A model generated the notes under the pieces. The model was not told the DNA's origin, did no database searches, and saw only the letters and a list, made by a program, of their open reading frames with translations. Of a DNA stretch of 53,113 nt, positions 3,534 to 23,709 are shown one piece after another. Made by a program: the position numbers and the translations under genes. Every line of letters starts with the position of its first letter. Positions within the stretch are counted from its first letter, which is position 1. The DNA comes from a virus: positions 1 through 53,113 of IMG/VR virus record IMGVR_UViG_3300017989_000146. The stretch is one strand, 5' to 3'.

Positions 3534-4012
3534 GGCTGAAGTCGACCTGGTTACTGATCGGGTCTGTCGTCGTTGCGGCATTGTTGGTGGCTGCCGTTGC
3601 GATGTCCGGGTGTAGCGAAGTCATTGACCGGATCATCGATCCGCCGGCACCGGAGTCGGTTTCTGGTGATTATGAGATTCGGTGGTCACTCGGCAATTTC
3701 GAGTTTCCTGATACGCTTTACATCTGCCAGGATCCTGTGCCGGCATTCGGTGAAGACGGAGACATCCGATATCCTACACAGATATGGGATGAGCTTGGGA
3801 GAACCTGGGTCGGAGAATACAGGCTGGTATCCGAGAACGACGATGACGTTCACGGAGTGTTGACGGCATCCAGGCTGTTCTCGGTCATGGTGTTCAAAGC
3901 AAGCAAGCGCTTCGGACGGATTCGTCTGATCGGCGGCGTCGTCGGGGTGAACGAGATCGGTGGTTTTTCGGCGGGGAGCGGGACGGCGAAGTATCGATCA
4001 ATCAACGAGTGA
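3500..4012 (+). CDS. Putative phage lipoprotein
   Basis: A 170-residue protein with a short basic N-terminus, a hydrophobic stretch (WLLIGSVVVAALLVAAVA) and a lipobox ending MSGC with the cysteine near residue 38, as expected for signal peptidase II processing. The mature part (about 130 residues) looks beta-rich (DYEIRWSLGNFEF, TASRLFSVMVF). It would be anchored in the cell envelope; superinfection exclusion or envelope modification is possible but not shown. The start ATG 3500 has AAGGAGG upstream, inside the previous gene. Confidence 0.75.
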   Translation: MCKRESGSSALRLKSTWLLIGSVVVAALLVAAVAMSGCSEVIDRIIDPPAPESVSGDYEIRWSLGNFEFPDTLYICQDPVPAFGEDGDIRYPTQIWDELGRTWVGEYRLVSENDDDVHGVLTASRLFSVMVFKASKRFGRIRLIGGVVGVNEIGGFSAGSGTAKYRSINE

Positions 4013-4047
4013 ATGCCGAGAGTGCTCGGCGGAAAGGGGCAGCCAGG

Positions 4048-4974
4048 ATGGGAAAGGTATTAAAAAATGAGTTCGCTTGGTCGAAGTCGAGGATGGATAC
4101 ATTTGACGGGTGCCGGCGAAGATACTGGTTCAATTATTACGGCTCGTGGAACGGCTGGCTCAGGACGGCGCCGAAGAGAGCCAGGGACATCTACATCTTG
4201 AAACAGCTCCAGAACCGGTGGGGCTGGCCCGGGGCGAGAGTCCATGAGGCGATCGAGCGAGTCATCAAGGCTCTGAAATCATCCTCTCAGATTCCGAAAG
4301 TCGGTGATGAGATTCAGTCGCTCACGAAGCAGATGCGGCAGGATTTCCGATTTTCTCGCGACAAGTGTTACTGGACGGCGCCGAAGGGTGGGGTGGCGCT
4401 GGCCGAGCATGAATACGGTCCTGACCCCGGCAGTGATACCTGGGCCTTCGTGGTGAGCGAGGCCTGTCGGTGTCTTGAGGCATTTTTCGATTCTACGGTC
4501 TATCCTGATATCGTCGAGCTGTCGCCTGACCGATTCCTCGAGATCGAGGATTTTTCTCACTTCTACCTGGACGGGCTGAAAGTCTGGGTTGTCATGGACC
4601 TCTGCTTCCGCCGCCCTGATGACAAGGTGGTCATCGTCGACTGGAAAACCGGGAAAGCGAAGGACCCCGACCCTGTTCAGCTTTCCTGCTATGCGCTGTA
4701 TGCGAAGGAAAAATGGGGGCTCAGGCCAGGTGACATTGAGGTGTGCGAGTACAACCTGAAAGAAGGTCGGCCGGCGACGTCGACTATTACCGAGGGAATG
4801 CTGCTCGACGTCAGGCGGATAATCGAGACGAGCGCAGAAGGGATGACCAGGTACGTCGTCGACGGTGACCGCGCCAAGAATACCCCACTTCCCGAGGATG
4901 ACTTCGAGGCCATCGATACCGGTGACTGTCGGCGGTGCAATTTCAGGCGACTCTGCCCTGTCCAGGGAGGCTGA
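4048..4974 (+). CDS. Cas4/RecB-like PD-(D/E)XK exonuclease with Fe-S cluster cysteines
   Basis: A 308-residue nuclease. The N-terminal cysteine in TFDGCRRRYWF (about residue 21) and a C-terminal cluster GDCRRCNFRRLCP (about 292-303) give the four cysteines that bind a 4Fe-4S cluster in Cas4, AddB and Dna2-type nucleases. The catalytic core is seen as VVIVDWKTGK (about 198) with the helix PVQLSCYALYA. The family degrades or trims DNA ends with single-strand preference. GTG 4009 is in frame upstream, but ATG 4048 has GGAAAGGGG at good spacing and the conserved part starts right after. No cas1 or cas2 is nearby, so a CRISPR role is not supported; recombination is more likely. Confidence 0.88.
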   Translation: MGKVLKNEFAWSKSRMDTFDGCRRRYWFNYYGSWNGWLRTAPKRARDIYILKQLQNRWGWPGARVHEAIERVIKALKSSSQIPKVGDEIQSLTKQMRQDFRFSRDKCYWTAPKGGVALAEHEYGPDPGSDTWAFVVSEACRCLEAFFDSTVYPDIVELSPDRFLEIEDFSHFYLDGLKVWVVMDLCFRRPDDKVVIVDWKTGKAKDPDPVQLSCYALYAKEKWGLRPGDIEVCEYNLKEGRPATSTITEGMLLDVRRIIETSAEGMTRYVVDGDRAKNTPLPEDDFEAIDTGDCRRCNFRRLCPVQGG

Positions 4975-4978
4975 TGAA

Positions 4979-5827
4979 ATGAAGCCGAAGAAACCAGGGC
5001 AGTATTGGGATATCATGATGAGCCCGATTACCGTGACTGGCTGTCATGTTTCACGAGGATGTGATCGGTGCTGGCATCATGCGATGGCTCGGAGGTTCTA
5101 CGATATTCATGAACGAGGAAAGTTGGTCGGGATAGATGATGGAATCGAGGTCCGGTGGCACGAGGATCGGCTGATGACGGTCAGAGGAGACTTGACGAGG
5201 CGAGTCGTCGCAGTTGGATGGCTCGGTGATATGTTCCATCCTCTCGTCCCAAGGGAATACATCAACAGGATACTCGATGCCGTTCTCGCCAATGGGCTGC
5301 ATATATACCTATTTCTCACGAAACACCCTGGCAGGATGGCGCAGGTCGTCAATGAGCACCTGGCGCAGTCCGAGCGATATGTCGACGAGGCGAGGCGGGA
5401 AAACCTGAATCTCTGGTTCGGTACGTCGGTCGAAGATCAGCCTACAGCAGAGGCCAGAATAAATGCCCTTTCACATGTCTGGCATGGTCGTCGATGGGTT
5501 TCCTATGAGCCGGCAAAAGGCCCGATGCTTTTGCCGAGGTCAGGGGTGAGGAGTACACTCAGAAACGGCCCACCCCTGAAAACCACCGTGGAGCTCGTGG
5601 TCGCCGGCGGGGAGACGGGGGCTGGAGCGAGTCAGGTCAATATCGAGTGGTTCATGAATCTTCGAGATCAGTGCCGAGAAACCGGCGTGACTTTCTACCT
5701 GAAGACTCTCGGGGATGCTCGGAAGAAAGAGCTGAAAGGATTCAGTGATGCTGCTGAGAGGGCAAGGATGATCGCCGGCAAAACCTATGACGACCTTCCG
5801 TGGGTCGGGGAGGTATTCGAAGGATGA
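4979..5827 (+). CDS. DUF5131 (Gp37/Gp68-like) three-Cys phage protein
   Basis: A 282-residue member of the DUF5131 family. The family hallmark is an N-terminal three-cysteine motif resembling a radical-SAM-type cluster site; here it is TGCHVSRGCDRCW (C-x5-C-x2-C). Further family features are VGWLGDMFHP, HIYLFLTKHPGRM, LWFGTSVEDQ, WVSYEPAKGP and ELVVAGGETG, a barrel-like alternation of strands and helices. The reaction is unknown; iron-sulphur binding is inferred from the cysteines. ATG 4979 has AGGGAGG upstream. No gene recognisable as the three-Cys-motif partner TcmP follows. Confidence 0.88.
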   Translation: MKPKKPGQYWDIMMSPITVTGCHVSRGCDRCWHHAMARRFYDIHERGKLVGIDDGIEVRWHEDRLMTVRGDLTRRVVAVGWLGDMFHPLVPREYINRILDAVLANGLHIYLFLTKHPGRMAQVVNEHLAQSERYVDEARRENLNLWFGTSVEDQPTAEARINALSHVWHGRRWVSYEPAKGPMLLPRSGVRSTLRNGPPLKTTVELVVAGGETGAGASQVNIEWFMNLRDQCRETGVTFYLKTLGDARKKELKGFSDAAERARMIAGKTYDDLPWVGEVFEG

Positions 5828-9832: not shown

Positions 9833-9928
9833 ATGATCACATCCAGGTCGGTAATCGACCTCCTGCTCGGGTCATCGATGGTTATCCAGCTGCTCAACGA
9901 TTCGGCTCATAATAGACGGAGGTTGTGA
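9833..9928 (+). CDS. Possible 31-aa hydrophobic peptide
   Basis: A small frame with ATG 9833 and CGGAGG 8 bases upstream. The product has a hydrophobic middle (VIDLLLGSSMVIQLL) and a basic end (NRRRL). The last base overlaps the ParB-fold start. It is supported only by the ribosome site and position, so it could be a chance frame or a leader peptide for the downstream operon. Confidence 0.35.
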   Translation: MITSRSVIDLLLGSSMVIQLLNDSAHNRRRL

Positions 9929-10689
9929 TGGCAAAGAAAACAGGTCGGCGCCGGCCCCGCCTTCCGGCACCGAAGACCGTTCCTATCTCGTCACTGACTC
10001 CACACCCGAAGAATTACTGCCAGCACCCCGAAGACCAGATCGAGCACATCAAGGAAAGTATCCTCGAGCATGGGCTTTACAGGAACATCGTCGTCGCGAA
10101 TGACTTGACGATCCTGGCTGGCCACGGCGTTGTGGAAGCAGCGAAGCTTCTCGGTATCAAGCAGGTGCCGATCATCAAAGTGAAAGTCGGCCCCAATGAT
10201 CCTCGTGCGCTGAAGCTGCTCGCCGGCGACAACGAGATCAGTCACCTCAGAGAAATCGATGATAGGATGCTCACGTCGATCTTGAAGGAGATCAAGGAGC
10301 ACGACGAAGAGGGGCTGCTTGGGACGGGGTTCGATGATGCGATGCTGGCGAACCTGCTATTCGTGACGAAGCCGGCGTCAGAGGTGCAGGATTTCGATGA
10401 GGCTGCTCACTGGGTCGGGATGCCCGAGTACAACAAGGAAACTCGACCCCTGCAGATGAACGTCAGCTTCAGGAATATGAAAGACCGCGCTGAGTTCGTG
10501 AAGCTGCTCGGTCTGGATGTGACGGACGCGACGAAGGCGGTCTGGTTCCCACAGCAGGAGCGACGTGACATAGTCTCAGTCAAGTTTCTCGGAGAGGGTT
10601 ACGAGAAGGAATCCCCGACCGGACTGAGTGCGACGCTTGCAGGTGAGCCGCCCGATATTCCTGGGTGGAAGGAGACGAAGAAAAAATGA
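9928..10689 (+). CDS. ParB/Srx-fold N-terminal domain protein
   Basis: A 253-residue protein. Residues about 15-110 carry the ParB/sulfiredoxin fold pattern: PISSLTPHPKNYCQHPEDQIEHI, ILEHGLYRNIVV, TILAGHGVVEAAKLLG (the GHG/R nucleotide-binding loop) and VPIIKV. A C-terminal region (LQMNVSFRNMKDRAEFVKLLG) is typical of phage versions of this family found just before terminase genes. The ParB fold binds nucleotides (CTP in true ParB) and in phages is often linked to DNA modification or packaging. ATG 9928 has GGAGG close upstream. It is followed by two TAGT glycosyltransferase genes, a context described for base-hypermodifying phages. Confidence 0.88.
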   Translation: MAKKTGRRRPRLPAPKTVPISSLTPHPKNYCQHPEDQIEHIKESILEHGLYRNIVVANDLTILAGHGVVEAAKLLGIKQVPIIKVKVGPNDPRALKLLAGDNEISHLREIDDRMLTSILKEIKEHDEEGLLGTGFDDAMLANLLFVTKPASEVQDFDEAAHWVGMPEYNKETRPLQMNVSFRNMKDRAEFVKLLGLDVTDATKAVWFPQQERRDIVSVKFLGEGYEKESPTGLSATLAGEPPDIPGWKETKKK

Positions 10690-11440
10690 GCAAGCTGCCG
10701 AAGCACCCCGTATTCGTTCCGACCAAGGCCAGGGCCGAGAATGCTACGACCCCGACCGTCTTGGCCAATGAGGGGATTCAGACGACTCTGTTCGTTGAAT
10801 CTCTGGATGTCGAGCCATACTCGAAGGCATTTCCTGAATGTCCGATAGTCGAACTCCCGGACAAGGACAGGGGAGTCGCCTACGCTCGGCAGTTCGTTTT
10901 GGACTACGCTCGCTCTCAGGGTATCGAGAGGTTCTGCAGGGTATCGAGAGGTTCTGGGAGTTGGACGACGATATCACCGGATTCGGCCGAGTGGAGAACA
11001 TGAAAGTCAATAACGCCACGGCAGCCGAAGTCTTGACGCGGATCGAGGATCTGGTTGATGACTCGCCTCGGATCGCTATGGCTGGCCCCGAGTTTCCGGT
11101 GTGGGCGAGGATGCACCAGAAAGCCTGGAAGATGCACACCCGCGTCGTCTGCTGCATGTTGATGTCTTCGTATACCGGCGTTGACTATGACCTGAACATC
11201 GCATCCAGGGAAGACCTTGACTTCTGTATTGCGACACTCCTGGCTGGATGGGAAACCATTCTGGTGCAAGACTGCGTCATGAAAATCCCGAAGCCAGGAA
11301 ACCCAGGGGGGTGTGCGACTGTGATTTCCGATCGGGCGAAGTCCGACGCTGAGGGTGATGCTATGCTGATGGAAAAGTACCCAGGCTTGATCAGCCCGAG
11401 GAAAGGGAAAAAGGCGACCGTCAGGTGGGCGCGAATCTGA
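10686..11440 (+). pseudogene. TET-associated glycosyltransferase (TAGT), frame broken by 20-bp tandem duplication
   Basis: A GT-A-type glycosyltransferase of the TAGT family, predicted to add sugars to hydroxymethylated pyrimidines in phage DNA. The first frame (10686-11003) has the family start (HPVFVPTKARAENATTPTVL, VEPYSKAFP, VELPDKDRGVAYARQFVLDYA). The second frame resumes at IERFWELDDDITGF, then HTRVVCCMLM, SREDLDFCIATLLAGWETILVQD and GGCATVISDRAKSDAE. The break is an exact 20-bp direct duplication (10917-10936 and 10937-10956). Removing one copy restores a single 244-residue protein with the acidic motif ELDDD immediately after the repeat. As given, the product is out of frame before the active-site aspartates. 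It may be an assembly or sequencing error, a mutation, or a slippage-controlled switch. Confidence 0.85.
10917..10956 (+). repeat. Perfect 20-bp tandem duplication inside TAGT
   Basis: Two identical adjacent copies of a 20-base unit beginning CAGGGTATCG and ending GGTTCTG (10917-10936, 10937-10956). Twenty is not a multiple of three, so the copy number sets the reading frame: one copy is in frame, two are out of frame. There are no mismatches between copies, which points to a very recent event or an artefact. Confidence 0.95.
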
Positions 11441-11452
11441 GGAGGCTATGAC

Positions 11453-12340
11453 ATGCCGGCTTCGATACTTCCACGATATCCGATTTACATTCCTTCGAAG
11501 GGACGAGCGAATAAATGCTTCACAGCTCAGTTCCTCATGGCTGACGGGGTCTCGTTCCGACTCGTCGTAGAGGAGACCGAGCAAGATGATTACGCGAATC
11601 GGTTCGGCGCCGAGCGGTTACTGGTGCTCCCCTTCAAGGATCAAGGGTCTGTCATCCCGACAAGAAACTGGATAAAGGCCCACTCTGCTGAAGAGGGATA
11701 CGAACGTCATTGGCAGCTCGATGATAACATCCGGCACATCATGAGATGGAATGATGGCTGGCGAATTCGGTGTGAGGCTGGCCCTGCGATAGCCGCCGTG
11801 GAGGATTTCACGGACAGGTATGAGAATGTCGCAATCTCGGGGATGAACTATGTCATGTTCGGAGTCGGCCCGGCGAAGCCCTTCATCCTGAATTGCCGTG
11901 TCTACTCGTGCAGCCTCATCCTGAACAGTATCCCTCATGAGTGGCGTGTAAGGTATAACGAGGATGCTGATATCTGCCTACAGGTTCTTGCGGACGGATG
12001 GTGCACCGTCCTGGTCAATGCGTTCCTCGTTAAGAAAATCAAGACGATGGTGATCAAGGGCGGGAACACCGACGAGATCTACCAGGGAGACGGGCGCGCG
12101 AAGATGGCTCGTTCGCTTGAGAGGATGTGGCCTGGGGTTGTGAAGACGAAGCGTCGCTTCGGTCGTCCTCAGCATCACATCTTCGATGGGTGGAAGAGAT
12201 TCGATACGCCATTGAAACTGAAACCCGAGGTCGACTTGTCGAAGATGCCGGCAGTTGATGACTATGGGTTGAAGCTGAAGCAGGTTGCCCCGAAGGTGCG
12301 GAGCAAGGAATTGAAAAAGCTGCTGAGGAAAAATGGCTGA
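11453..12340 (+). CDS. TET-associated glycosyltransferase (TAGT), intact copy
   Basis: A 295-residue paralogue of the broken gene just upstream. It has the N-terminal YPIYIPSKGRANKCFTAQFL, LPFKDQGSVIPTRNW, the acidic metal-binding motif WQLDDNI (about residues 88-94), a central FILNCRVYSCSLILNS and the second acidic motif YNEDADICLQVLADGWCTVLV, then a Lys-rich tail. These are GT-A glycosyltransferase features specific to the TAGT family, proposed to modify oxidised or hydroxymethylated bases in DNA. The sugar donor and the base are unknown, and no TET/JBP oxygenase or dNMP hydroxymethylase is visible in the window. It lies between the ParB-fold and terminase genes. Confidence 0.88.
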   Translation: MPASILPRYPIYIPSKGRANKCFTAQFLMADGVSFRLVVEETEQDDYANRFGAERLLVLPFKDQGSVIPTRNWIKAHSAEEGYERHWQLDDNIRHIMRWNDGWRIRCEAGPAIAAVEDFTDRYENVAISGMNYVMFGVGPAKPFILNCRVYSCSLILNSIPHEWRVRYNEDADICLQVLADGWCTVLVNAFLVKKIKTMVIKGGNTDEIYQGDGRAKMARSLERMWPGVVKTKRRFGRPQHHIFDGWKRFDTPLKLKPEVDLSKMPAVDDYGLKLKQVAPKVRSKELKKLLRKNG

Positions 12341-13049
12341 GCAGGTGAACAGTTGGGATCGTCAGGCAGATGAGCGGGATAAGCCTTGGGCCGCGTTCGT
12401 GGTATTCAGGGATATGGGGAAGGATCGGAATCTTCTCCAAGCATACCGCGACACCTACGGTCGCCAGAATGCCAAGAAGGCTCCCGGGTGGTATGCTGCT
12501 TGGGCGAAGAAGCATGACTGGCGTCGTCGTGCTGCTGCCTGGGATGCGCATCTCGATCAGATCGCGCAGGATGGCGTCGAGGATGGTGTCGAGGAACAGG
12601 GGCGACGTCTTGGGGTCGAGTGGAGGGTTCGGCGTTCCGAGTTGATGGAAGTCAGTGCGCGACTACTCCGCAAAGCAGAGCAGATGCTTGACTTCCCGAT
12701 CGCTAGACAAGAGCGCACGACGCAGACCGATGAAGATGGGAACGCGACTGAGATCGTGATCGTCAATCCAGCCAGGTTCACATTCTCGACTGCAGCGAAA
12801 CTGGCCGAGGCCTCGGCCAAGCTCGGAGCTATCGCGGCTGAGAAGTCACTGGATCCGCATCGGTTCGGGATGAATGATGATGCTGATATCGCGGCGATAA
12901 ATTCCGAGAAGCAGAAAGCGATGCAGCGTCTTCTTGCTGACCCTGAAAGCCGGGCCGCTCTCGATGTCCTCGCCAAGAAAACCCCGACTCCGAATTATGC
13001 CAATGGAGTCCAGCCAGAACCCGATGATGATGAGGGGGGTGAAGTCTGA
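12333..13049 (+). CDS. terS: Terminase small subunit (putative)
   Basis: A 238-residue protein that overlaps TAGT by 8 bases and abuts the large terminase (TGATG). The N-terminal part has the layout of a terminase small-subunit DNA-binding region (WAAFVVFRDMGKDRNLLQAYRDTYG, then WYAAWAKKHDWRRRAAAWDAHLD). The middle is a long helix (VEWRVRRSELMEVSARLLRKAEQML) suited to oligomerisation, and the C-terminus is Asp/Glu-rich and disordered. The role is recognition of viral DNA for packaging and recruitment of TerL. The assignment rests on position and layout more than on a strict motif. Confidence 0.75.
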   Translation: MAEQVNSWDRQADERDKPWAAFVVFRDMGKDRNLLQAYRDTYGRQNAKKAPGWYAAWAKKHDWRRRAAAWDAHLDQIAQDGVEDGVEEQGRRLGVEWRVRRSELMEVSARLLRKAEQMLDFPIARQERTTQTDEDGNATEIVIVNPARFTFSTAAKLAEASAKLGAIAAEKSLDPHRFGMNDDADIAAINSEKQKAMQRLLADPESRAALDVLAKKTPTPNYANGVQPEPDDDEGGEV

Positions 13050-14482
13050 TGCAAGCGACTGCCCTGGACTATGGGAACGATAGCTGGAAATGCTCCATAG
13101 ATGACTATGCCCGAATCGCGTCTGGCGGTGAGTGGTTTCCATACCACTATCTTGAACGCCTCGCTACTAAAATCCGAGATACAATCTTGACTGGCGGCGG
13201 TCGCCTGATTATCGGGATGCCGCCTCAGAACGGGAAATCTCAGCTCATCTCGCGATGGACGACGACGTGGTTTCTCGATACGTTCCCTGATCGGTGGGTA
13301 TTGAATACCAGCTATGAGGCATCGAAGGCGGTCAGGTGGGGTCGTGTCGTCCGTAATTATTTCATGACTGCTTCGAATCCGTGGACGAGGGTACTCCCTG
13401 GACACGCGGCTGCGAATAACTGGGGAACCACGGCTGGCGGGGGGATGGTCTGCGCTGGTGTGAATGGGCCCCTCGCCGGCGAGCCTGGTGATCTGCTCCT
13501 GATTGATGATCCCTATAAAAACTGGCTACAGGCTCATTCCAGGGCATATGAGAAATCGCTATTCGGAGGTGGTGACGCTGAAGAGGCTGGCTGGTTCGAC
13601 TCGACTTTTTATACGAGGCAGAGGCCAGGGGCGACTATCATTCTCATCATGCACCGATGGTCAAAGCATGATCTCGCTGCGTGGCTGCTCAAGGACCATT
13701 CTGATAATTGGGAATTTGTCGCGTGTCCTGCAATCGCTACGAAGAACGATTGGCTCGGTCGGCCCCTCGGGACTCCCCTTTGTCCGCAACGCTATCCCCT
13801 GGACGTTCTCAAAAAAATAAAAGCCGGTGTGTCTCCGCTCGTCTGGGCGGGGCTGTTTCAGCAGGACCCGGTCGCTGAGGGTGGAACGGTTATCCAGCGC
13901 GACTGGCTCAAGCAGTATTGGGATGTGTTACCACCATACTTCGATGAAATCCTCTGTTCCTGGGATATGGCATTCAAGAACAAGGCGACTTCAAGTTTCG
14001 TCTGCGGTCAGGTCTGGGGTCGTTATGCCGGCAAGTTTTTTCTGATCGGCCAGGTTCATGCTCGGATGTCATATACCCAGACCAGGGCAGCCACTGTCCA
14101 GCTCGCCTCCGACTATGAGCATATCGGCGCACACCGGAAGGTGCTGATTGAGGACAAGGCGAACGGGCCGGCGATCATGGATGATCTGTCCGAGGTACTT
14201 CCTGGATTGATCCCGTTCAGCCCTGAGAAATACGGGAGTAAGGAGGCCAGGCTACACGCCACGAGTCCGATATTTCAGGCGAAGAACGTCATCATTCCGA
14301 ACCCGAAAATATATCCGTGGGTGAGTGCCTGGATCGATGATATGACTGCTGCGCCGAATGCTGAATATATGGATAAAGTTGACACGACGACCCAGGCGTT
14401 GATAGAGTTGTCGAAGACGACGGGAGTCGTCGTCGTTCCGAAGATCGAGGGGCTCACGCGGACGAGCCCGTGGAGGAGTTGA
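13049..14482 (+). CDS. terL: Terminase large subunit
   Basis: The 477-residue packaging motor. The ATPase domain has the Walker A-type motif GMPPQNGKS (about residues 56-64), and Walker B LLIDDPYKN (about 150) with a following helix. The C-terminal RNase H-like nuclease shows SWDMAFKN (about 303), VLIEDKANG (about 370) and a late acidic site in WIDDMTAAPN...DKVDTTTQAL. Complete length and motifs suggest it is functional. It powers DNA entry through the portal and cuts concatemers. The start is coupled to TerS by TGATG. Confidence 0.95.
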   Translation: MQATALDYGNDSWKCSIDDYARIASGGEWFPYHYLERLATKIRDTILTGGGRLIIGMPPQNGKSQLISRWTTTWFLDTFPDRWVLNTSYEASKAVRWGRVVRNYFMTASNPWTRVLPGHAAANNWGTTAGGGMVCAGVNGPLAGEPGDLLLIDDPYKNWLQAHSRAYEKSLFGGGDAEEAGWFDSTFYTRQRPGATIILIMHRWSKHDLAAWLLKDHSDNWEFVACPAIATKNDWLGRPLGTPLCPQRYPLDVLKKIKAGVSPLVWAGLFQQDPVAEGGTVIQRDWLKQYWDVLPPYFDEILCSWDMAFKNKATSSFVCGQVWGRYAGKFFLIGQVHARMSYTQTRAATVQLASDYEHIGAHRKVLIEDKANGPAIMDDLSEVLPGLIPFSPEKYGSKEARLHATSPIFQAKNVIIPNPKIYPWVSAWIDDMTAAPNAEYMDKVDTTTQALIELSKTTGVVVVPKIEGLTRTSPWRS

Positions 14483-14483
14483 G

Positions 14484-15800
14484 ATGCCTGATTTCGACCC
14501 GAAGAGATTGGCCGAGTTATCGATGAAACGTTCCCGTCCTGAGTTCAACGAGATCGGGTCAACCGGTCTGAAGAGGTACGGCAACACGCTATCCGAAGAA
14601 TTTTTGCCTCAGCTCAAAGGCGGGAAGGCGATGAAGACATTCGCCGAAATGGAGGCGAATGACCCGGCAGTCCGTTCCGGTCTCTTCGTCACGAACATGC
14701 TGCTGAAGCAGGTATCCTGGTATGTCGAGCCGGTGAGTCAGGACAACGTCGATCTTGCCGCGGCCAAGTTCGTCGAACAGTGTATGGAGGATATGTCGTC
14801 GACGTGGGATGATACGATCAGTGAAATACTGACCATGCTGCCATTCGGGTTTTCTCCACTTGAGCTGGTCTATAAACTTCGGAAGGGGGAGACGAACGAC
14901 CCGACGACGAGAAGTCGATTCACGGATGGTCGGATCGGGTGGCGTAAGATGCCGCTCCGGGCGCAGGATACTATCGTAGAGTGGCTGATCGGAGACGACG
15001 GTGGAATCAATGGGCTGAAGCAGACGCCCCCCCCATCCTACAACATGGTCGAGATCCCGATCGAGAAACTCCTTCTATTCAGAACAGACACGATCAAAAA
15101 CAATCCTGAGGGCCGGTCGATTCTTCGCGCTGCTTATCGCCCCTGGTATTTCAAAAAGCGGATCGAGGAAATCGAGGGGATCGGCATCGAGCGTGACCTG
15201 GCCGGGCTGCCTACGGTCTACGCCCCCGCTGAGTGGTTCGGGGAAAGTGCAACTGCGGACCAGAAGCAAGCTCTTGCCACGCTGAAGGATATCGTCATCA
15301 ACGTCAGGCGCGATGAGCAGGAGGGTGTTCTGATTCCCCTCATGTTCGACCGCGATAAAAACCAGCTCATCAAATTCGAGTTGCTATCGACTGGTGGAAA
15401 GCGCCAGCTCGATACAGACAAGGTGATTCGCCGTTACGATCAGCGCATCCTGATGACTGTCCTGTCTGATTTTCTCCTGCTCGGTCACGAGAAAGTCGGG
15501 AGTTACGCTCTGTCGTCCGACCGCACAAATCTTCATGCTGTTGCTATCGGTGGCTGGCTCAAGGTGATCAAGAATGTCTTCAATCGATATGCCATCCCGA
15601 GACTGTTTCACTATAACGATATGCCGGTGAAGGAATTGCCGACTATCGAGCATGGTGATGTAGAAAAGCCGAACGTTGATACGATCATCAGCGCCCTGAA
15701 GTCCATGTCTGACGCCGGTATGGAGTTGTTCCCCGACGAGAAACTCGAAGCATGGATCAGGTCACTCCTAGGAGCTCCCGAGAAAGAAGACGAAGAATGA
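14484..15800 (+). CDS. Portal protein (DUF935 / Mu gp29-like)
   Basis: A 438-residue portal of the DUF935 family. Family features include TFAEMEANDPAVRSGLFVTNMLLKQVSWYVEP near the N-terminus, ILTMLPFGFSPLELVYK, FRTDTIKNNPEGRSILRAAYRPWYFKK and GSYALSSDRTNLHAVAIGG. It forms the dodecameric ring at one vertex through which DNA is pumped. TGGAGGAG precedes ATG 14484. It directly follows TerL and precedes the head-assembly genes, the usual order. Confidence 0.93.
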   Translation: MPDFDPKRLAELSMKRSRPEFNEIGSTGLKRYGNTLSEEFLPQLKGGKAMKTFAEMEANDPAVRSGLFVTNMLLKQVSWYVEPVSQDNVDLAAAKFVEQCMEDMSSTWDDTISEILTMLPFGFSPLELVYKLRKGETNDPTTRSRFTDGRIGWRKMPLRAQDTIVEWLIGDDGGINGLKQTPPPSYNMVEIPIEKLLLFRTDTIKNNPEGRSILRAAYRPWYFKKRIEEIEGIGIERDLAGLPTVYAPAEWFGESATADQKQALATLKDIVINVRRDEQEGVLIPLMFDRDKNQLIKFELLSTGGKRQLDTDKVIRRYDQRILMTVLSDFLLLGHEKVGSYALSSDRTNLHAVAIGGWLKVIKNVFNRYAIPRLFHYNDMPVKELPTIEHGDVEKPNVDTIISALKSMSDAGMELFPDEKLEAWIRSLLGAPEKEDEE

Positions 15801-16120
15801 GCGACGATGTAATGAAAATTACCAACCCGGCGAAGTTCATTCAAGACACCGGCATCCTCGGTGAAATTAACCGGACGATTCTCCATCCTCTCGGTCTTGC
15901 GTTGGCTGTCAATGTTGACGCTGAAGAGGGAGACGTCCAGCCATTCTCGATCTTGGAAACAGCAGACCCTGAGGGGTTTGTTTTCGATGAAGTTGACTCC
16001 ATCGTTCTTCGGTTTAAGGCGTTTTCGATGTCGCGCGCCGATCGTGTCCGCGCACGCGGCCAGGGTCTCGGTCACCTGATTCAGAAACCAGGGGGCGCTC
16101 ACGGTGAGTCCGTCAAGTAA
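15797..16120 (+). CDS. Conserved head-region protein (INR..LHPLGLAL type)
   Basis: A 107-residue protein starting at an ATGA overlap with the portal. The conserved part FIQDTGILGEINRTILHPLGLALAVN followed by ETADPEGFVF matches small proteins that I recall lying between portal and Mu F-like genes in many phages (DUF7415-like, from memory). The function is unknown; its place in the head operon is constant, suggesting an assembly or virion role. The 3' end overlaps the next gene by 17 bases. Confidence 0.8.
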   Translation: MSDDVMKITNPAKFIQDTGILGEINRTILHPLGLALAVNVDAEEGDVQPFSILETADPEGFVFDEVDSIVLRFKAFSMSRADRVRARGQGLGHLIQKPGGAHGESVK

Positions 16121-17072
16121 CGACTATGAAGTCTGGAAGGCTTCTGCTGACGCTGAGGCCAGAAAAGTTTTTCGAGAGATGACCAAGCTCGAGCCGAGAG
16201 CCGCTCGGGCATACATGGTTGCTGTTCGAGAAGCGAAAGGCGGGATTGATGTCGTCGCTCTGAGAGAGGCTCTCGCGTCTGGAAACCTGACTGCGGCTGA
16301 GGCAGCGCTTCACCTTGAACGATTTGAATCTACCGCCGGCTCTGTAACTACGGTTTTCAGGGATGGCTTCGACCGTGGAGCTGAGTCAGGTGCAACTGCA
16401 GCGAAGCCCCTCGTTGTCCCTGGCGCTGTCGCCATCTATGATCCTCTCGATCCATTTATCCAGGCACAACTTCGCCGGCACACGGCTGAGCTGGTTTCTG
16501 GTATCACGAACACGACGAAAGACGGGATCAGGGCCGTCATGGGTCGGGCATACGAGCGTGGGATGCATCCGTCCGCGACTGCCGGTTATATCCAAGACCT
16601 CGTCGGACTCACGAAGCGACAGGCTCTCGCCGTTGATAATCTACACCGCCGATTAATTGATGAAGGGGTGTCGGAAGTAAAGGCGACGGCGAGGGTGAAG
16701 AAATATTCAGCCAAACTCCACAAGCAAAGAGCGATGAACATCGCCAGGACCGAGTCATCTCGGATGGTGAATGCTGGTCGTCACTCGATGTGGAAAAAAC
16801 TAGAACAGGACGGGTCGTTCGGGGATCACGCCAATCGCATTGAACGAGTATGGATAACGAATCCCGATGAGCGCCTCTGTGAACAGTGTGAGCCGCTTGA
16901 CGGAGAGGCTGTCGGGCTGGATGAATCCTTCCCCGGCGGCGTCATGTACCCCCCGCTTCATCCTCAGTGCCGGTGTACGGTAGTCTTGAGGCTGAGGCGT
17001 GAAAAAGCCTGGAAGGTTGGTGTTGGGAATCTGAGAGTCTGTCGGTGCCGGCATCACCGGATGGCTGCCTAA
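16104..17072 (+). CDS. Mu gpF-like minor head / head morphogenesis protein
   Basis: A 322-residue protein. The C-terminal half has the SPP1 gp7/Mu F family signature: RAMNIARTESSRMVNAGR, then RVWITNPDERLCEQCEPLDGE and PPLHPQCRCTVVL, with cysteine and histidine pairs typical of the family. The N-terminal half is helical and variable. The family acts in procapsid assembly and may be ejected or line the portal. The start is GTG 16104, preceded by a G-rich ribosome site; no better ATG fits the overlap with the previous gene. Confidence 0.9.
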   Translation: MSPSSNDYEVWKASADAEARKVFREMTKLEPRAARAYMVAVREAKGGIDVVALREALASGNLTAAEAALHLERFESTAGSVTTVFRDGFDRGAESGATAAKPLVVPGAVAIYDPLDPFIQAQLRRHTAELVSGITNTTKDGIRAVMGRAYERGMHPSATAGYIQDLVGLTKRQALAVDNLHRRLIDEGVSEVKATARVKKYSAKLHKQRAMNIARTESSRMVNAGRHSMWKKLEQDGSFGDHANRIERVWITNPDERLCEQCEPLDGEAVGLDESFPGGVMYPPLHPQCRCTVVLRLRREKAWKVGVGNLRVCRCRHHRMAA

Positions 17073-17085
17073 CAGGAGGAGCGTC

Positions 17086-19098
17086 ATGGCAGGTCGAGAC
17101 TACCTCGAATCCTTAATGGAAGAAGTCAAGCATTGGCTCCCAACAGAGACGTATCGCCGCCTTCACGCGCGTGCGTTTCCGAGGTCAGGCGCACGCGCTC
17201 GGTGGCGTTCTCCGTCTGGCCCTGGGTTTTTCGAGCGGCAGGTCATCGGGCAGATCGATAAGAAAATGTTCGATGGAGTTGATGACGGTGACGTCAAGGC
17301 TGCGTGGTCGTCATTGGCGTCGTGGCATAAGGCCGCGAAGAAAAAAGGCGACGACGACCTCGTCGGGAAGGTGGAGGCTGGTGCGAAGATCGTTGCCGGC
17401 GTTCTGCGGTCGAGGGATATCGATGTCGAGACGAAAAGCGGGTTGCTGTCGTCGATCGAGAAAGCGGCTGTCTCGAAAAAGTGGGAAGATGAGGACGACT
17501 GGAAACAGGTTCGTTATCGAGTCCGCAATCCTGACCTGTTCGTCGAGGGAAGTCTTCGGACCACTCCGATCGGGAAGGAAAAAGGAGTCGGCGCGATCAT
17601 GGGAAAGCTGGTCGACGGAGGGAAGTGGGCTATCCAGTCACTCCGCTTCGACAAGGATCACGGATGGACTCTTGAGAAAGCGAAGACGTGGGTCGGGGAT
17701 CACCCTGATGTCAACAAGGCAGAGGATCCGGATCGAGCGAAGCTGCTCGGCGGACTCCTTGGACGCGATGAGCCGGCTGTCGTCCAGGCATACTGGGACG
17801 CATGCTATCGTGACCATCCGAAAGAACCCGTCCCCTATGACAGCGTCGTACCGATCAAGATTACCGGTGGGTCAGATCGTTCATTGTGGCGTATCAATGA
17901 TGGATGGGGTGGGCGATATTTCCTCTACGACGATGGCAAGGCTGAGCCAGTTGCAATCAAGATGCCCGACGTCAAGGCATTCAGCTTCGAAGGCCCACTG
18001 AAACGATTCAGCGGTGACAAGGCCCTGGTCAACGCTCTCGGGTGGAGCGATAAAGCCTGGGACCGGTTTCTCGTAAAGTGGTTCACGGGGGACGGGGATG
18101 ATACTACGAAGTCCGCGTGGGCTGAGCAGTGGCAAGAGCTTCTGCCTGAGAGTGGCAACGGCAAGTTCACATGCCAGGCTAGGTTCAGAGACATCCCCGA
18201 AGAACACGTCGGGAAAAGCGCCGAAGAGCTTGCCGGCGCCGACCTCGGATTCAGTTCTGATTACGAGCTTCTTTTCACGGGTGGCGAAGCCCCGTGGGGA
18301 ATCATCGGCCATGCCTTGAATCCGACAGTCGAGAAACTCGCCGGCTGCGATGTCGAGGATGTGTACGTGGTCGTCGATGACGGTATCGTGGTCGCAGACT
18401 CGAAACCTCGTGCGCAGAAAACAGACGCTGGCTTTGACGTCATCTTCCCCCTTGACTCAGGAAATTATGACGTCGGTGTCTGCACGAAAGACGCCTTTGA
18501 AATATTCCTCGACGGAGATCACCTGGCCGGGCGACATCGTATTCTCCTGTCTGATGACGGAACATCCTGGGATATGGAAAGACCCGAGGATCAAGAGCCT
18601 ACCGCGAAGACCATGACCCTCCCTGATGTGATCGATGACGTCAAGACAGTCGGGCAGAAGCACCTGGTATGGAGCGCCCCTGGTGAAAAAGCCGAGGTCG
18701 TGGATGTTGACGAAGACCGCGTCAGGATTGGGCGATACTGCGAAATCATGAAAGCCGATGATGAGAAGCAGATCGTCTACGGTGTTGTCATGGAGCCGGA
18801 TAGCATCGATACTCAGGGGGAAGCTGCGCGAGCGGAAGAAATCGAAAAGACGGCGCATCGGTTCATGGAAATGTACCGTACTGTCGGAGATCAGCATCGA
18901 ACGAAATTCAAGGGTGGCGTCATTGTCGAGTCATGGATCACCCCAGAGGCGATGTCCTGGAACGGCCAGCAGATCAAGAAAGGCTCGTGGCTCATGGGAG
19001 TTCACATTAAAGATGCAGCAAAGTGGGCTGAGGTCAAGGACGGAAAATACACCGGGTTCAGCATCGGCGGTTGGGCTGCCAGAGAAAATAGGGGTTGA
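17086..19098 (+). CDS. Large capsid maturation protease fusion (C-terminal XkdF-like domain)
   Basis: A 670-residue multidomain protein. Residues about 554-670 match the XkdF putative serine protease of PBSX-like phages (EIMKADDEKQIVYGVVMEP, DTQG, then DQHRTKFKGGVIVESWITPE and GSWLMGVHI, ending GKYTGFSIGGWA). Residues about 140-215 (YRVRNPDLF, SLRTTPIG, GVGAIMGKLVDGGKWAIQSLRF, WTLEKAKTWVGDH) form a domain often found in front of such proteases. Residues about 340-400 (FTCQARFRDIPEEHV, DYELLFTGGEAPWGII) recall the strand pattern of LigD phosphoesterase-like domains but lack the histidine and aspartate expected there. The usual role is scaffold and capsid processing. It is far longer than a normal prohead protease. 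Confidence 0.85.
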   Translation: MAGRDYLESLMEEVKHWLPTETYRRLHARAFPRSGARARWRSPSGPGFFERQVIGQIDKKMFDGVDDGDVKAAWSSLASWHKAAKKKGDDDLVGKVEAGAKIVAGVLRSRDIDVETKSGLLSSIEKAAVSKKWEDEDDWKQVRYRVRNPDLFVEGSLRTTPIGKEKGVGAIMGKLVDGGKWAIQSLRFDKDHGWTLEKAKTWVGDHPDVNKAEDPDRAKLLGGLLGRDEPAVVQAYWDACYRDHPKEPVPYDSVVPIKITGGSDRSLWRINDGWGGRYFLYDDGKAEPVAIKMPDVKAFSFEGPLKRFSGDKALVNALGWSDKAWDRFLVKWFTGDGDDTTKSAWAEQWQELLPESGNGKFTCQARFRDIPEEHVGKSAEELAGADLGFSSDYELLFTGGEAPWGIIGHALNPTVEKLAGCDVEDVYVVVDDGIVVADSKPRAQKTDAGFDVIFPLDSGNYDVGVCTKDAFEIFLDGDHLAGRHRILLSDDGTSWDMERPEDQEPTAKTMTLPDVIDDVKTVGQKHLVWSAPGEKAEVVDVDEDRVRIGRYCEIMKADDEKQIVYGVVMEPDSIDTQGEAARAEEIEKTAHRFMEMYRTVGDQHRTKFKGGVIVESWITPEAMSWNGQQIKKGSWLMGVHIKDAAKWAEVKDGKYTGFSIGGWAARENRG

Positions 19099-19164
19099 CA
19101 CGAAGTCCGTCGTCGTGCGATCATTTTCATCGCGAAGCATAGAGACGATTGATGGAGGTTGCTC

Positions 19165-20043
19165 GTGAAACCCGCCTGGATGGTCGATATCGATACACAA
19201 GAAGTCAGCCTGGTCGACCGGGCAGCCAACAAACGAAAGTTTATCCTGTTCAAAAGCGAAGGAGGCGTCATGAAAATCGACGAGATGGTACTGAAAGCGA
19301 TCCTCGAAGGAGACCTTCCCCTCGCCGAGAAGCTCAAGTCGGTCTTCGAAGGGTGGTCCGAGAAAGCGGTCGGGGCGTTCCAGGCCGTCATGAAGCTGCT
19401 CGGTTCGTACAAGGACGAGCTGCCGGCGGACGCGCTCACGAAGTCGGCGGAGGTTCTGAAAGAGATGGGCTTCGAGCTTCCCACGGTCGAGAAGGTCGTG
19501 ACCAAGGAGGTCGAGAAGGGTGCGAAGCCGACCTGGCTGCCGGTGAAGAAAGACGACGGCAGTTACGACCTGAGCTCCATCCCGGAGGAATCCAGGCCGA
19601 TGGTCGAGATGCTCCTGAAGTCGTACGACGGGAGCGAGGACGAGATTAAGAAGCTCAACGAGAAACTCGAGAAAGCCGCGGACGAACAGGCCACCAAGGA
19701 GGCCGTCGCGAAAGCCGCCACGTTCACCCACATCCCCGAACTGTCCGCCGAGGAATTCGCGCCCGTCATCAAGGCGCTGAGCGGCGCCGACTTCGAGGCC
19801 TGGGCCAAGGTCGAATCGATCTTGAAGGCCGCGAACAAGGTGATCGAGGACGGTGAGCTGCTCAAGCAGTTCGGCAAGGATGGCATCGGGGAATCCGAGG
19901 CCGAGCGGAAGCTGGACTCGATGGCCAAGGAGCGCGTCACCAAGAGCGCCGGCGAGAAATCCTACGAGCAGGCGTACACCGAGATCCTGGACGAGAATCC
20001 GGACCTCTACGCCCAGGCGAAGAGGGAGTCGGCGTCGGCTTGA
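19165..20043 (+). CDS. Scaffold-like protein
   Basis: A 292-residue, highly charged helical protein. The N-terminus (DIDTQEVSLVDRAANKRKF, then LFKS) is the conserved segment that in related phages follows the XkdF protease, probably a processing or docking site. The rest is helical with coiled-coil stretches (YDGSEDEIKKLNEKLEKAADEQ) and a Lys-rich end, as in internal scaffolds. GTG 19165 is chosen because GGAGG lies 6 bases upstream; TTG 19159 is worse spaced. C/G-ending codons indicate high expression, as expected of a scaffold needed in hundreds of copies. Confidence 0.82.
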   Translation: MKPAWMVDIDTQEVSLVDRAANKRKFILFKSEGGVMKIDEMVLKAILEGDLPLAEKLKSVFEGWSEKAVGAFQAVMKLLGSYKDELPADALTKSAEVLKEMGFELPTVEKVVTKEVEKGAKPTWLPVKKDDGSYDLSSIPEESRPMVEMLLKSYDGSEDEIKKLNEKLEKAADEQATKEAVAKAATFTHIPELSAEEFAPVIKALSGADFEAWAKVESILKAANKVIEDGELLKQFGKDGIGESEAERKLDSMAKERVTKSAGEKSYEQAYTEILDENPDLYAQAKRESASA

Positions 20044-20110
20044 TGATCGTCACCGCTACGGTGGCGTTCTCGCAGTAACCGAACGAACCTGAAAGAAGGA
20101 GGATCCGAAA

Positions 20111-20860
20111 ATGGCTTACGAGGATCTTGGAAAATGCATCAGCATGCCGGTCGCGGCCGATTCCTCGGCCTTGCAGTTTCACTTCATGAAAGCCAGTACC
20201 GACAGCCCGTCGAAGCTGGCCGTCTGCGGGGATGGTGAGCGTGGCCTCGGCATCCTGCAGAACAACCCCGACGCCGCCGACAAGATCGGAAATGCGATGA
20301 TCGGGGCCGGAATCTCGAAGGTCGTCTACGGCGGTTCCATCACGGCTGGCGATGACCTGGCATGTGACGCCAATGGTCACGCGGTCACGGCGACCGGAAG
20401 CGACGCGGTCCTTGCGATTGCCCTGGTCACCGGCACCTCAGGAGACATCCACCCCTGCATCCTGCTCCCGAAGACGGCGGAAGGGTATCAGCAGTCCTTC
20501 TTCGTCTACCGGACGACCCTGGCCAGCCTCGCCAGCGCCGACCTCATCACCGCCATGACCCCCGGCTTCGCCGGTCGCATCCTGAAGATGTATGCCATCA
20601 CGAAGGTGGTCACCACCGACGCCGACGCCGAGGCTGCCATCAATCTCGAAATCGGGACCACCGACCTGACCGGAGGTGTCCTGACGATCGGTGATACCGC
20701 CGATGGTGACGCGGCCCCCGACGCGGTCGGGAAGGTCATCGAGGCGACGGCGATCACGGCCGCGAATACCTTCACGGCCACCGACACCATCTCGATGGAA
20801 TGCGTCGTCACCGATGCGCACTCCGACGGTGAGGTCGACATCGTGATCGTGTTCGGCTGA
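20111..20860 (+). CDS. Capsid decoration protein with extra C-terminal beta domain
   Basis: A 249-residue protein. Residues 1 to about 125 resemble the DUF2190 head decoration family (VVYGGSITAGDDLACDANGHAV, AIALVTGTSGDIHPCIL). Residues about 130-249 form a second beta-rich domain (FFVYRTTLASLASADLI, AINLEIGTTDLTGGVLTIG, ISMECVVTDAHSDGEVDI) that could be displayed on the capsid surface. A strong AAGGAGG site and C/G-ending codons indicate high copy number. It lies just upstream of the major capsid gene, where decoration proteins commonly lie. Confidence 0.82.
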   Translation: MAYEDLGKCISMPVAADSSALQFHFMKASTDSPSKLAVCGDGERGLGILQNNPDAADKIGNAMIGAGISKVVYGGSITAGDDLACDANGHAVTATGSDAVLAIALVTGTSGDIHPCILLPKTAEGYQQSFFVYRTTLASLASADLITAMTPGFAGRILKMYAITKVVTTDADAEAAINLEIGTTDLTGGVLTIGDTADGDAAPDAVGKVIEATAITAANTFTATDTISMECVVTDAHSDGEVDIVIVFG

Positions 20861-20918
20861 TCCGGTTCATTGAACCAGATCGTCGGCTTAATATATTGAC
20901 GAAAAGGAGGATCGAAAA

Positions 20919-21905
20919 ATGCCTCAGCCTACCGCAAGTGACGTCCACTACAGCAGGCCGCTGACGAACATCAGCGTCGCGTACCTGCAGTCGCTGGACA
21001 CGTTCATCGCCTCGAAGGTGTTCCCCGTCGTACCGGTTTCGAAACAGGGCAACCGCTACACGACCTACGAGAAGTCGTACTGGAATCGGATCGTCGCGCA
21101 GAAACGCACCCCCGCCACCGCGTCTGCCGGCGGAGGGTACGGGGTCAACAATGACAACTCGTATTACTGCGACGTCTGGGCGCTCCACAAGGACGTCGAC
21201 GACGAAACCCGGGCCAACTCCGACGACCAGATCAACCCCGACCGGGATGCGACCGAGTACGTCTCCCGAAACCTGATGCTCGCGAAGGAGAACGACTGGA
21301 CGTCGGCCTACTTCACCACGGGCATCTGGACCGGAGATCAGACTGGCGTCTCCTCCGGTCCGAGCACGAACGAGTTTCTCCAGTGGAACGACGCCAGCTC
21401 GACGCCGATCAAGAACATCCAGGATCAGCTCGACATCGTCCAGCAGCGTACCGGTTTCCGCCCGAACAAGCTCGTCCTCGGCCCCCAGGTCTTCACGGCC
21501 CTGAAGGACAATCCTGACATCCTCGACCGGATCAAGTACTCGCAGCGTGGCGTCATCACGCGCGATATCCTGGCCATGCTCTTCGAGGTCGATGAGGTCC
21601 TGGTGCCGTACGGCATCTACACCACGACCGACGAAGGCGTCGTCGAGGCCTCCCAGGAGTATTCATTCTTCTTCGGGAAAGCCGCCCTCCTGATCTATGC
21701 CGCGCCGAACCCCGGACTGCTCATCCCGTCCGGTGGATACACCTTCGCGTGGACCGGTCTGCTCGGTGCCTCGGCCATGGGTCACCGGATGACCACCTTC
21801 CGCATGAAGGAGCTGAAGGCGGATCGCGTCGAGGGTGAGATGGCGTTCGATCAGAAGGTCATCGCCGCCGATCTCGGTGTGTTCTTCGTGAGTGCCGTGG
21901 CCTGA
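20919..21905 (+). CDS. Major capsid protein
   Basis: A 328-residue HK97-fold capsid protein. The N-terminal arm (YSRPLTNISVAYLQSLDTFIASKVFPVVPVSKQ) and the pattern DQLDIVQQRTGFRPNKLVLGPQVFTAL, followed by ILAMLFEVDEVLVPYG and FFFGKAALLIYA, are characteristic of this capsid type. The gene has the most biased codons of the window, an AAAAGGAGG site and a large hairpin downstream, all fitting the most abundant virion protein. It builds the icosahedral shell together with the decoration protein encoded upstream. Confidence 0.92.
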   Translation: MPQPTASDVHYSRPLTNISVAYLQSLDTFIASKVFPVVPVSKQGNRYTTYEKSYWNRIVAQKRTPATASAGGGYGVNNDNSYYCDVWALHKDVDDETRANSDDQINPDRDATEYVSRNLMLAKENDWTSAYFTTGIWTGDQTGVSSGPSTNEFLQWNDASSTPIKNIQDQLDIVQQRTGFRPNKLVLGPQVFTALKDNPDILDRIKYSQRGVITRDILAMLFEVDEVLVPYGIYTTTDEGVVEASQEYSFFFGKAALLIYAAPNPGLLIPSGGYTFAWTGLLGASAMGHRMTTFRMKELKADRVEGEMAFDQKVIAADLGVFFVSAVA

Positions 21906-21924
21906 TCGGCCTGAAAGGAAACCC

Positions 21925-21985
21925 GGGCGACAAGGCCGGTGTTCTCGGTGGTGGCTGCCCCTCCGCCGAGACGCCGGCCTCGCCC
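21925..21985 (+). terminator. Large hairpin after the major capsid gene
   Basis: Three nested stems: GGGCG 21925-21929 with CGCCC 21981-21985, GGCCGG 21934-21939 with CCGGCC 21974-21979, and CTCGG 21944-21948 with CCGAG 21966-21970. It lies in the 114-base gap after the capsid gene and has no T tract. It probably attenuates read-through or protects the capsid mRNA 3' end. Confidence 0.6.
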
Positions 21986-22020
21986 ACATAAGTCAACCAT
22001 GAATGGGAGGGGCATCAGCC

Positions 22021-22437
22021 ATGCCTTGGTATGCACGAAGGGAAATGACGCTGAACGGCGAAAAGGTTCACGGACCATCGCCCGACAATCCACTCGGTAC
22101 TCTCATTCCTGATGCCGAGAAGCTGCCTACCTTCCGCGCCTTGAAGGGGTCCAACTTCATCGTGTTCCATGAAGGGGATCCTCCGAAGGTAGAGGCTCCC
22201 AAGGTCGATCCCCCGGCACCGCCTCCCGAGGAAAAGCCCCCGGCACCGCCTCCCGAGGAAAAGCCCCTGGCACCGCCTCCCGAGGAAAAACCCCCGGCGG
22301 AATCGGACGGAGCGAAAGACAAGTCGCCGGCAGCCAAGAAAGAGCCGGCTGAGAAAGCTCCCCAAAGGTCGTCGAAGAAAAAGACGGTCAAGAAAACCGG
22401 CGGCAGAGGTCGAAAGGCCGGGAGCAAGACGAAGTGA
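22021..22437 (+). CDS. Head protein with Pro/Glu/Lys repeat and basic tail
   Basis: A 138-residue protein. The first 55 residues form a compact domain (NGEKVHGPSPDNPLGTLIPDAEKLPTF). They are followed by three copies of a nine-residue repeat (APPPEEKPP type) and a Lys-rich tail (KKKTVKKTGGRGRKAGSKTK). The tail is surely disordered and may bind DNA or other virion parts. ATG 22021 is preferred over 22003 because GGGAGG lies 10 bases before it. It is located between capsid and connector genes. Confidence 0.72.
   Translation: MPWYARREMTLNGEKVHGPSPDNPLGTLIPDAEKLPTFRALKGSNFIVFHEGDPPKVEAPKVDPPAPPPEEKPPAPPPEEKPLAPPPEEKPPAESDGAKDKSPAAKKEPAEKAPQRSSKKKTVKKTGGRGRKAGSKTK
22215..22295 (+). repeat. Three 27-bp coding direct repeats
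   Basis: Three near-identical 27-base units starting at 22215, 22242 and 22269 (each beginning GGCACCGCCTCCCGAGG). They encode the nine-residue Pro-Glu-Lys repeats. The length is a multiple of three, so copy changes by slippage would keep the frame. Confidence 0.9.
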
Positions 22438-22449
22438 TCGAGGAGTGCG

Positions 22450-22902
22450 ATGTCTTGGACTTATACCGGAAACCCTGGCGCGTCGACGAAGGACGAGCTA
22501 CGATTCATCGTCGGCGACACGGACTCGACGAGGCAGCTCCTCCAAGACGCTGAGGTGTGGTTCCTCCTCAGCCAGCATAACGACTCTCCGAAGGCCGCGG
22601 CGATCTCCGCCGTCCGGGCCATTCTCTCGAAGCTGTCTAGGCGTGTCGATCAGACGACGGGCAAGGTCAGCGTCAAGCTGTCCCAGGCACACAAACACTA
22701 TACTGACATGCTCGACGAGATGCAGCGCCAGCTCGGACTTTCCGGGGTGGATGCTATCGCCGGTGGTATCAGCATCAGCGACAAGGATGGGGTGGAGGTG
22801 GATAGCGACCGCGTCCCCCCGATCTTTGAGAAAAAGATGCATGACAATGACCGTGAGGGTGATCTGAAAGAACGGCCATCCTGGGGTGCGTGTGATGAAT
22901 AA
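22450..22902 (+). CDS. Head-tail connector / adaptor (gp6-like)
   Basis: A 150-residue helical protein with the adaptor pattern STKDELRFIVGDTDSTRQLLQDAEVWFLLSQ followed by AAAISAVRAILSKLSRRVDQ and SQAHKHYTDMLDEMQRQLG. Such proteins form the ring that closes the portal in the HK97 gp6/SPP1 gp15 group. The acidic C-terminal end overlaps the next start. Position after the capsid genes and before the tail completion protein supports the call. Confidence 0.82.
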   Translation: MSWTYTGNPGASTKDELRFIVGDTDSTRQLLQDAEVWFLLSQHNDSPKAAAISAVRAILSKLSRRVDQTTGKVSVKLSQAHKHYTDMLDEMQRQLGLSGVDAIAGGISISDKDGVEVDSDRVPPIFEKKMHDNDREGDLKERPSWGACDE

Positions 22903-23347
22903 AACCGAGGATAAAGATCGAGGCCGAAAGCGAATCCTCAAAGACCTGGACGTCATTGACAACGCCCATGTTCTTGTTGGGCTGTTCGCTGATGCGCAGT
23001 ATGATGACGGGCTGTCAGTCGCTGAAATCATGGCGGTTCATGAATACGGTTCGAAGGATGGGAAAATTCCAGAGCGTTCGTTCATTCGGTCAACTGACGC
23101 TGAGAAAGATACAGTGTTCGAGCAGACTCGGAAGGAAATGCTCAGCGATGTTTTGCGTGGAGTGACGGGGGTCAGAGGGGCCCTCATGATCATCGGAGAG
23201 GAAGTCAGGGCAGCCTACGTTGAAAAAATCAAATCAGGTGTCGAGCCAGAGCTGGCCGAGGTCACGAAGGAGCGCAAGGGATCCAGCTTGCCGCTCGTCG
23301 ATACCGGGACTGCGCTGAATAGCATCAAGCAGCGCGTGGTGATGTGA
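22895..23347 (+). CDS. Neck / tail completion protein (HK97 gp10-like)
   Basis: A 150-residue protein. The N-terminal AHVLVGLFADAQYDDGLSVAEIMAVHEYGSKDGKIPERSFIRST is the typical signature of gp10-like and virion-morphogenesis proteins (VHEYG...IPERSF). The C-terminus PLVDTGTALNSIKQRV also fits. It is needed for tail attachment or termination. ATG 22895 is chosen, with GTG 22886 in frame as an alternative; the start overlaps the previous stop. Confidence 0.82.
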   Translation: MNKTEDKDRGRKRILKDLDVIDNAHVLVGLFADAQYDDGLSVAEIMAVHEYGSKDGKIPERSFIRSTDAEKDTVFEQTRKEMLSDVLRGVTGVRGALMIIGEEVRAAYVEKIKSGVEPELAEVTKERKGSSLPLVDTGTALNSIKQRVVM

Positions 23348-23709
23348 TGGCCAGCCTGATTCAGGAAATAGAGGATTGGTTCGGGGACGTTACGCTGAAA
23401 AGGGCGACCGTCGCAGAGGGATATACTGATGGAAGACGAAATGCACGAACGCGGTCAGACGTCCCCATCACAGCTTGCGTTCAGCAGCCGAATCCTGAAG
23501 ACCTGCTCCAGTTTCCCGAGGGGCTGAGAACGAAGAAGTGGATTCTCGTTATCAGTGAAGATGAAATTCGCGGTCAGGATGACGAAAATGATATGCCGGC
23601 GGATCTGGTTTCTTGGGAGGGTGAAGACTACGAAGTCCAGCGAGTCGAAGACTGGCTTCATGTTGATATCGATCATTACGAAGCCTACGCCGTGAGAAAA
23701 CAGGAGTGA
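23347..23709 (+). CDS. Head-closure / neck protein (putative)
   Basis: A 120-residue protein starting at the A of the previous stop (TGATG). The layout is LIQEIEDWFGDVTLKRATVAEGYTDGRR, then ITACVQQPNPEDLLQFPEGLRTKKWILVIS and DLVSWEGEDYEVQRVEDW, a beta-barrel-like pattern seen in stopper or head-closure proteins. No strict motif; the call depends on position between gp10-like and tail genes. Confidence 0.65.
   Translation: MASLIQEIEDWFGDVTLKRATVAEGYTDGRRNARTRSDVPITACVQQPNPEDLLQFPEGLRTKKWILVISEDEIRGQDDENDMPADLVSWEGEDYEVQRVEDWLHVDIDHYEAYAVRKQE

Follow-up and report, generated by a model that had tools for sequence, protein, structure and literature searches.

The window analysed here, a stretch of 53,113 nt comprising positions 1 to 53,113 of IMG/VR virus record IMGVR_UViG_3300017989_000146, encodes two consecutive genes of the TAGT family downstream of a ParB-like gene, and the first of the two is interrupted by a tandem duplication of 20 bp (Table 1). 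Both fragments of the first gene (TAGT1) and the whole of the second (TAGT2) matched the TAGT profile, PF20691 / phrog_842 (beta-glucosyl-HMC-alpha-glucosyltransferase of T2/T6), above its cut-off; the TAGT1 fragments scored 39.1 and 45.4 bits against a curated cut-off of 27.5, which bears out the sequence-only reading of the locus as a TAGT gene. Judged by these matches, the target of the duplication is likely a DNA-modification enzyme, and glycosyl transfer onto modified DNA is the predicted role of the TAGTs in the window. An uninterrupted reading frame was found for gene 2 and not for gene 1. A DUF5131 gene (4865-5827) is also located upstream of the TAGT pair. At the contig ends, a UvrD-like helicase lacks its N-terminus (1-1654) and an open frame runs off the contig (51707-53113); both ends thus seem to lie inside genes, and the genome is probably an incomplete linear fragment.

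Table 1. Features of the TAGT locus, in positions of the window.
Feature	Position	Strand	Remarks
ParB-like gene	9925..10689	+	Directly upstream of TAGT gene 1; its TGA overlaps the TAGT1 ATG
TAGT gene 1, upstream fragment, 105 aa	10686..11003	+	Matches TAGT (PF20691) profile positions 2-83
TAGT gene 1, downstream fragment, -1 frame	10838..11440	+	Matches PF20691 profile positions 77-193
Copy 1 of 20-bp unit	10917..10936	+	Upstream frame reads QGIERF(C)
Copy 2 of 20-bp unit	10937..10956	+	-1 frame reads QGIERF, then W-E-L-D-D-D
TAGT gene 2, intact, 295 aa	11453..12340	+	146.9 bits, PF20691 positions 1-205

The duplication consists of two adjacent, identical copies of CAGGGTATCGAGAGGTTCTG, as seen both in the sequence itself and with TRF. 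The array spans 40 bp, exactly 2 x 20, with no partial unit, and the junction microhomology is zero: the unit's last base is not matched by the base 5' of copy 1, nor its first base by the base 3' of copy 2. No further copy of the unit with up to three mismatches was found in the window, and shuffled sequences gave 0. Exact tandem duplications with a period of at least 20 are expected by chance in the window at a frequency of ~1e-7, and none of 200 Markov-simulated windows contained an exact tandem duplication above period 13. A chance origin is excluded, and the perfect 20-base repeat that had been described at this position is both confirmed and non-random. TRF ranked it as the second-strongest array in the window. 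The strongest, at 22210-22298, is an in-frame array of a 27-bp unit (3.3 copies) that encodes PPAPPPEEK repeats within an ORF of 144 aa (22003-22437), and it is the same in a second record described below.

The two fragments of TAGT1 are parts of one gene, split by a net 20 additional nucleotides directly 5' of its catalytic LDDD motif. The upstream frame runs from the ATG at 10686 to a TGA at 11001-11003 and is native-like to residue 83, with foreign residues thereafter; the downstream fragment is homologous to the family from about 10937 and retains the DDD, E-D-x-D, and GG residues. The profile matches of the two fragments overlap only in the duplicated QGIERF. Codon-usage log-odds passed from frame 0 before the repeat to frame -1 after it and remained positive to near the end of the gene, and in the printed alignments the excess of TAGT1 over the other loci is a net 20 nt. 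The residues of the catalytic half that are invariant in the family are present downstream of the repeat, and no decay of TAGT1 other than the duplication was seen. These results uphold the earlier claim that two copies disrupt the reading frame immediately ahead of the acidic motif, as well as its arithmetic for the one-copy gene, in which 755 - 20 = 735 nt correspond to 245 codons including the stop and hence to a protein of 244 residues. The acidic motif had also been placed directly after the repeat; it does lie beside it, but a W intervenes before ELDDD.

The second TAGT gene provides the intact counterpart. Its predicted structure (pLDDT 92) has a GT-A-like fold, and its best PDB matches were GT-A glycosyltransferases and nucleotidyltransferases of like fold, with a TM of only ~0.4. 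In this model, the strand that comes after the segment equivalent to the TAGT1 repeat ends in LDDN, which puts the HWxLDDN/D motif at a strand end in a GT-A fold, as is characteristic of a TAGT. In T2/T6, the TAGT attaches a second sugar to cytosine that is already glucosylated; TAGT homologues are also encoded by many phages for which no partner enzyme is known (PMC13216743). Unlike in T2/T6, the probably incomplete genome studied here yielded neither a glucosyltransferase partner nor a gene for hydroxymethylation. Comparison of the window with Tet_JBP and the T4 beta-glucosyltransferase yielded no match, yet the positive controls of that search were silent as well; a search of the window for the thymidylate-synthase family, with working controls, was empty.

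Relatives of the two genes were collected from IMG/VR as 78 loci reached via TAGT2 and 80 reached via an alignment led by TAGT1 (contigs partly shared between the two sets), together with three bacterial loci. In all, 198 full-length and 23 partial TAGT frames, partly redundant, from 167 loci were compared. Tandem TAGT pairs like the one described here are common in the related viral contigs, and intact examples include those of L008, L013, L015, L019, L026, and L046. The closest relatives of TAGT1 are the two intact tandem TAGTs of locus L085, which are 43% identical upstream and 30% identical downstream, and which read straight through the segment without a 20-bp repeat. In contrast to the family, gene 1 here is split, its closest relatives are only ~30-43% identical to it, and it carries LDDD rather than LDDN. 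The HW and DD columns of the HWxLDDN/D motif were invariant in 42 homologues. No aligned homologue covering the repeat site contains an insertion there, the alignment being ungapped from the ARNW.. helix through HWQLDDN. A family that carried the duplicated segment would have undermined the sequence-only reading, and none of the homologues covering the site carries it; an insertion native to the family was accordingly rejected. Interior splits were seen in just two of the compared frames, TAGT1 and a TAGT of a tandem pair in IMGVR_UViG_3300009285_003700 (L136, 529-1392), in which a single in-frame TAA replaces the E of DRYENVA.

Several of these loci share further features with the window. A ParB-like gene or fusion is also encoded 5' of the TAGT in several relatives, and in L046, L056, L057, L103, and L141 the TAGT is apparently fused, within long ORFs, to an N-terminal part that is ParB-like, as judged from joint matches in a survey for split genes. 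In L085, an ORF at 1-1483 that by eye reads like a radical-SAM-type protein is located directly 5' of the two TAGTs, and an additional GT-like ORF is present at 3809-4726. Among named phages, neither a DNA match to the window nor a protein match to TAGT1 was found, and the relatives of TAGT2 were below 60% identity; the genome collection contained only three distant TAGT loci.

The accuracy of the record and the background rate of broken genes both bear on how the split is read. A second record, IMGVR_UViG_3300029258_000192, is identical to positions 11970-23352 of the window (0 mismatches over 11,383 bp, including the 27-bp array). The record of the window is accurate wherever this second record checks it; the second record begins 1 kb downstream of the duplication, and the site is outside the stretch that it covers. 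A search of IMG/VR with the 20-bp unit and two 30-mers from TAGT1 found no other contig, very near records possibly having been left out, and a terminase search found no near relative in IMG/VR other than the identical 11,383-bp fragment. Across 995 kb of loci, the exact tandem arrays (period 14-150) inside long open frames all had periods divisible by three, with the sole exception of that in TAGT1. Frame-breaking lesions or split genes of any cause were identified in ~1% of comparable frames in these metagenomic contigs by an all-against-all BLAST survey filtered for noise from antisense frames and ParB fusions; given this background, one broken gene in such a contig is unremarkable. An enrichment of lesions in TAGT genes (two in ~200 TAGT frames, compared with ~5-7 other candidate splits in ~600 frames) is not claimed.

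A frame-breaking exact duplication is an event that is normally purged by selection or that can be created by assembly, and its standing as the sole such in-gene array in 995 kb fits an event that is young, unpurged, or an error. Two readings, both already listed as alternatives in the sequence-only reading (a fresh null mutation and an assembly artefact), together take up nearly all of the probability. The one we favour, with slightly better than even confidence, is that TAGT gene 1 has recently become a loss-of-function allele. One exact duplication would have added 20 nt to a formerly intact gene, and translation would leave the native frame after residue 83 and stop 22 codons later, to give a truncated product without the catalytic strand, the LDDD motif, and the entire second half of the enzyme. 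We infer that the phage itself carries the mutation, that the fragment has no activity, and that the phage tolerates this because the adjacent second TAGT is intact. What speaks against this reading is that the reality of the duplication rests on one record of the site, and that zero junction microhomology removes the easiest mutational route. The null mutation is placed somewhat ahead of an assembly artefact, in which a 20-base overlap of two pieces was written twice, or a minority or chimeric read path was followed, and the real gene is intact. Such an artefact is a serious, if less probable, contender. A doubled overlap would yield just such an exact 2 x 20 array with no extra flanking base, the copies are identical and break an otherwise undecayed gene, no other frame-breaking in-gene array was found in the comparable loci, and some of the lesions that make up the background of ~1% are probably errors. 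A period of 20 is also near a common small k-mer size in assembly. A k-mer graph assembler, however, can write a junction only if some read contains its k-mers, which counts against an artefact, as do the absence of Ns at the site and the mismatch-free agreement with the separately listed record, possibly an independent sample, over a stretch that lies downstream of the site.

The sequence-only reading had given first place to a phase-variable switch, and the analysis gave this no positive support. A 20-bp unit gained and lost at a high rate would turn TAGT1 off and on, such that a mixed population could meet defences against both naked and glycosylated DNA. The geometry is right for this, as exact tandem units of a length not divisible by three are located inside a gene, the gene concerned likely encodes an enzyme that modifies DNA and has an intact partner, and glycosylase defences are known to select for loss of glycosyltransferases (PMC11078745, PMC13216743). 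There are, however, only two copies, and, with no microhomology at the junction, classical slippage is a poor account of the origin of the array. The relatives carry no repeat of any kind at the site, no length variant turned up in the IMG/VR search, in which no second record covers the site, and the true multi-copy array of the window is in frame and invariant between two records. Bacterial slipped-strand contingency loci likewise carry, within a reading frame, exact tandem units whose length is not a multiple of three. Contingency loci also have many short units, repeat tracts that are kept among relatives, and observed length variants, none of which was seen for the array in TAGT1: it is not a multi-unit slippage-prone tract, and the tract is not kept in relatives, L085 being intact. 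No direct precedent was found in the literature on tandem-repeat phase variation encoded by phages. A switch of this kind is accordingly considered improbable, and it is slightly more doubtful still that the two copies form an allele by which one of the two DNA glycosyltransferases of the phage is reversibly turned on and off, with both modification states kept in the population. Loss of one copy could in principle restore the frame, which would make a null allele revertible without its being an evolved switch. Least probable of all, and very unlikely, is that the two-copy gene still yields TAGT1, in full length or in two parts, by programmed -1 frameshifting or reinitiation. The -1 frame shares 166 nt with the upstream frame and contains an ATG at 10838, but the overlap contains no X-XXY-YYZ slippery heptamer, strict or relaxed, the -1 frame from 10838 to the repeat scores as non-coding, and a frameshift fusion would carry seven extra residues beside the catalytic strand that are absent from all relatives. 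A target-site duplication left by an excised element was also rejected, as nothing lies between the copies and 20 bp would be an unusual length.

If TAGT1 is a null allele, selection by host defences against glycosylated phage DNA is a possible reason. The Brig1 glycosylase selects for loss of one DNA glycosyltransferase in T4 and T6 (PMC11078745), null mutants of T4 a-gt escape Brig1 (PMC11078745, PMC13216743), and a second glycosyltransferase lets mutants that have lost one survive restriction (PMC13216743). The window resembles these T4 escapers in that a frame-breaking lesion is found in one of two DNA glycosyltransferase genes and the other is intact. It differs in that the T4 escapers carry small changes in a GT-B enzyme and arose under laboratory selection, with 0 of 29 showing a size change at the locus (PMC13216743), whereas here the gene is of GT-A type, belongs to an uncultured phage, and carries a 20-bp duplication on which any selection is hypothetical. 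By analogy, the logic of escape from Brig1 may extend to this phage.

Should the duplication be an artefact, the annotation of TAGT1 in the record deserves a flag. A phage DNA modification that could truly be switched on and off would be of considerable interest, and only the geometry of the repeat points that way. If the lesion is real, it would show a phage other than laboratory T4 that has lost one of its two DNA glycosyltransferases in nature, and the pattern of one lost and one kept is what glycosylase-type defences would select.
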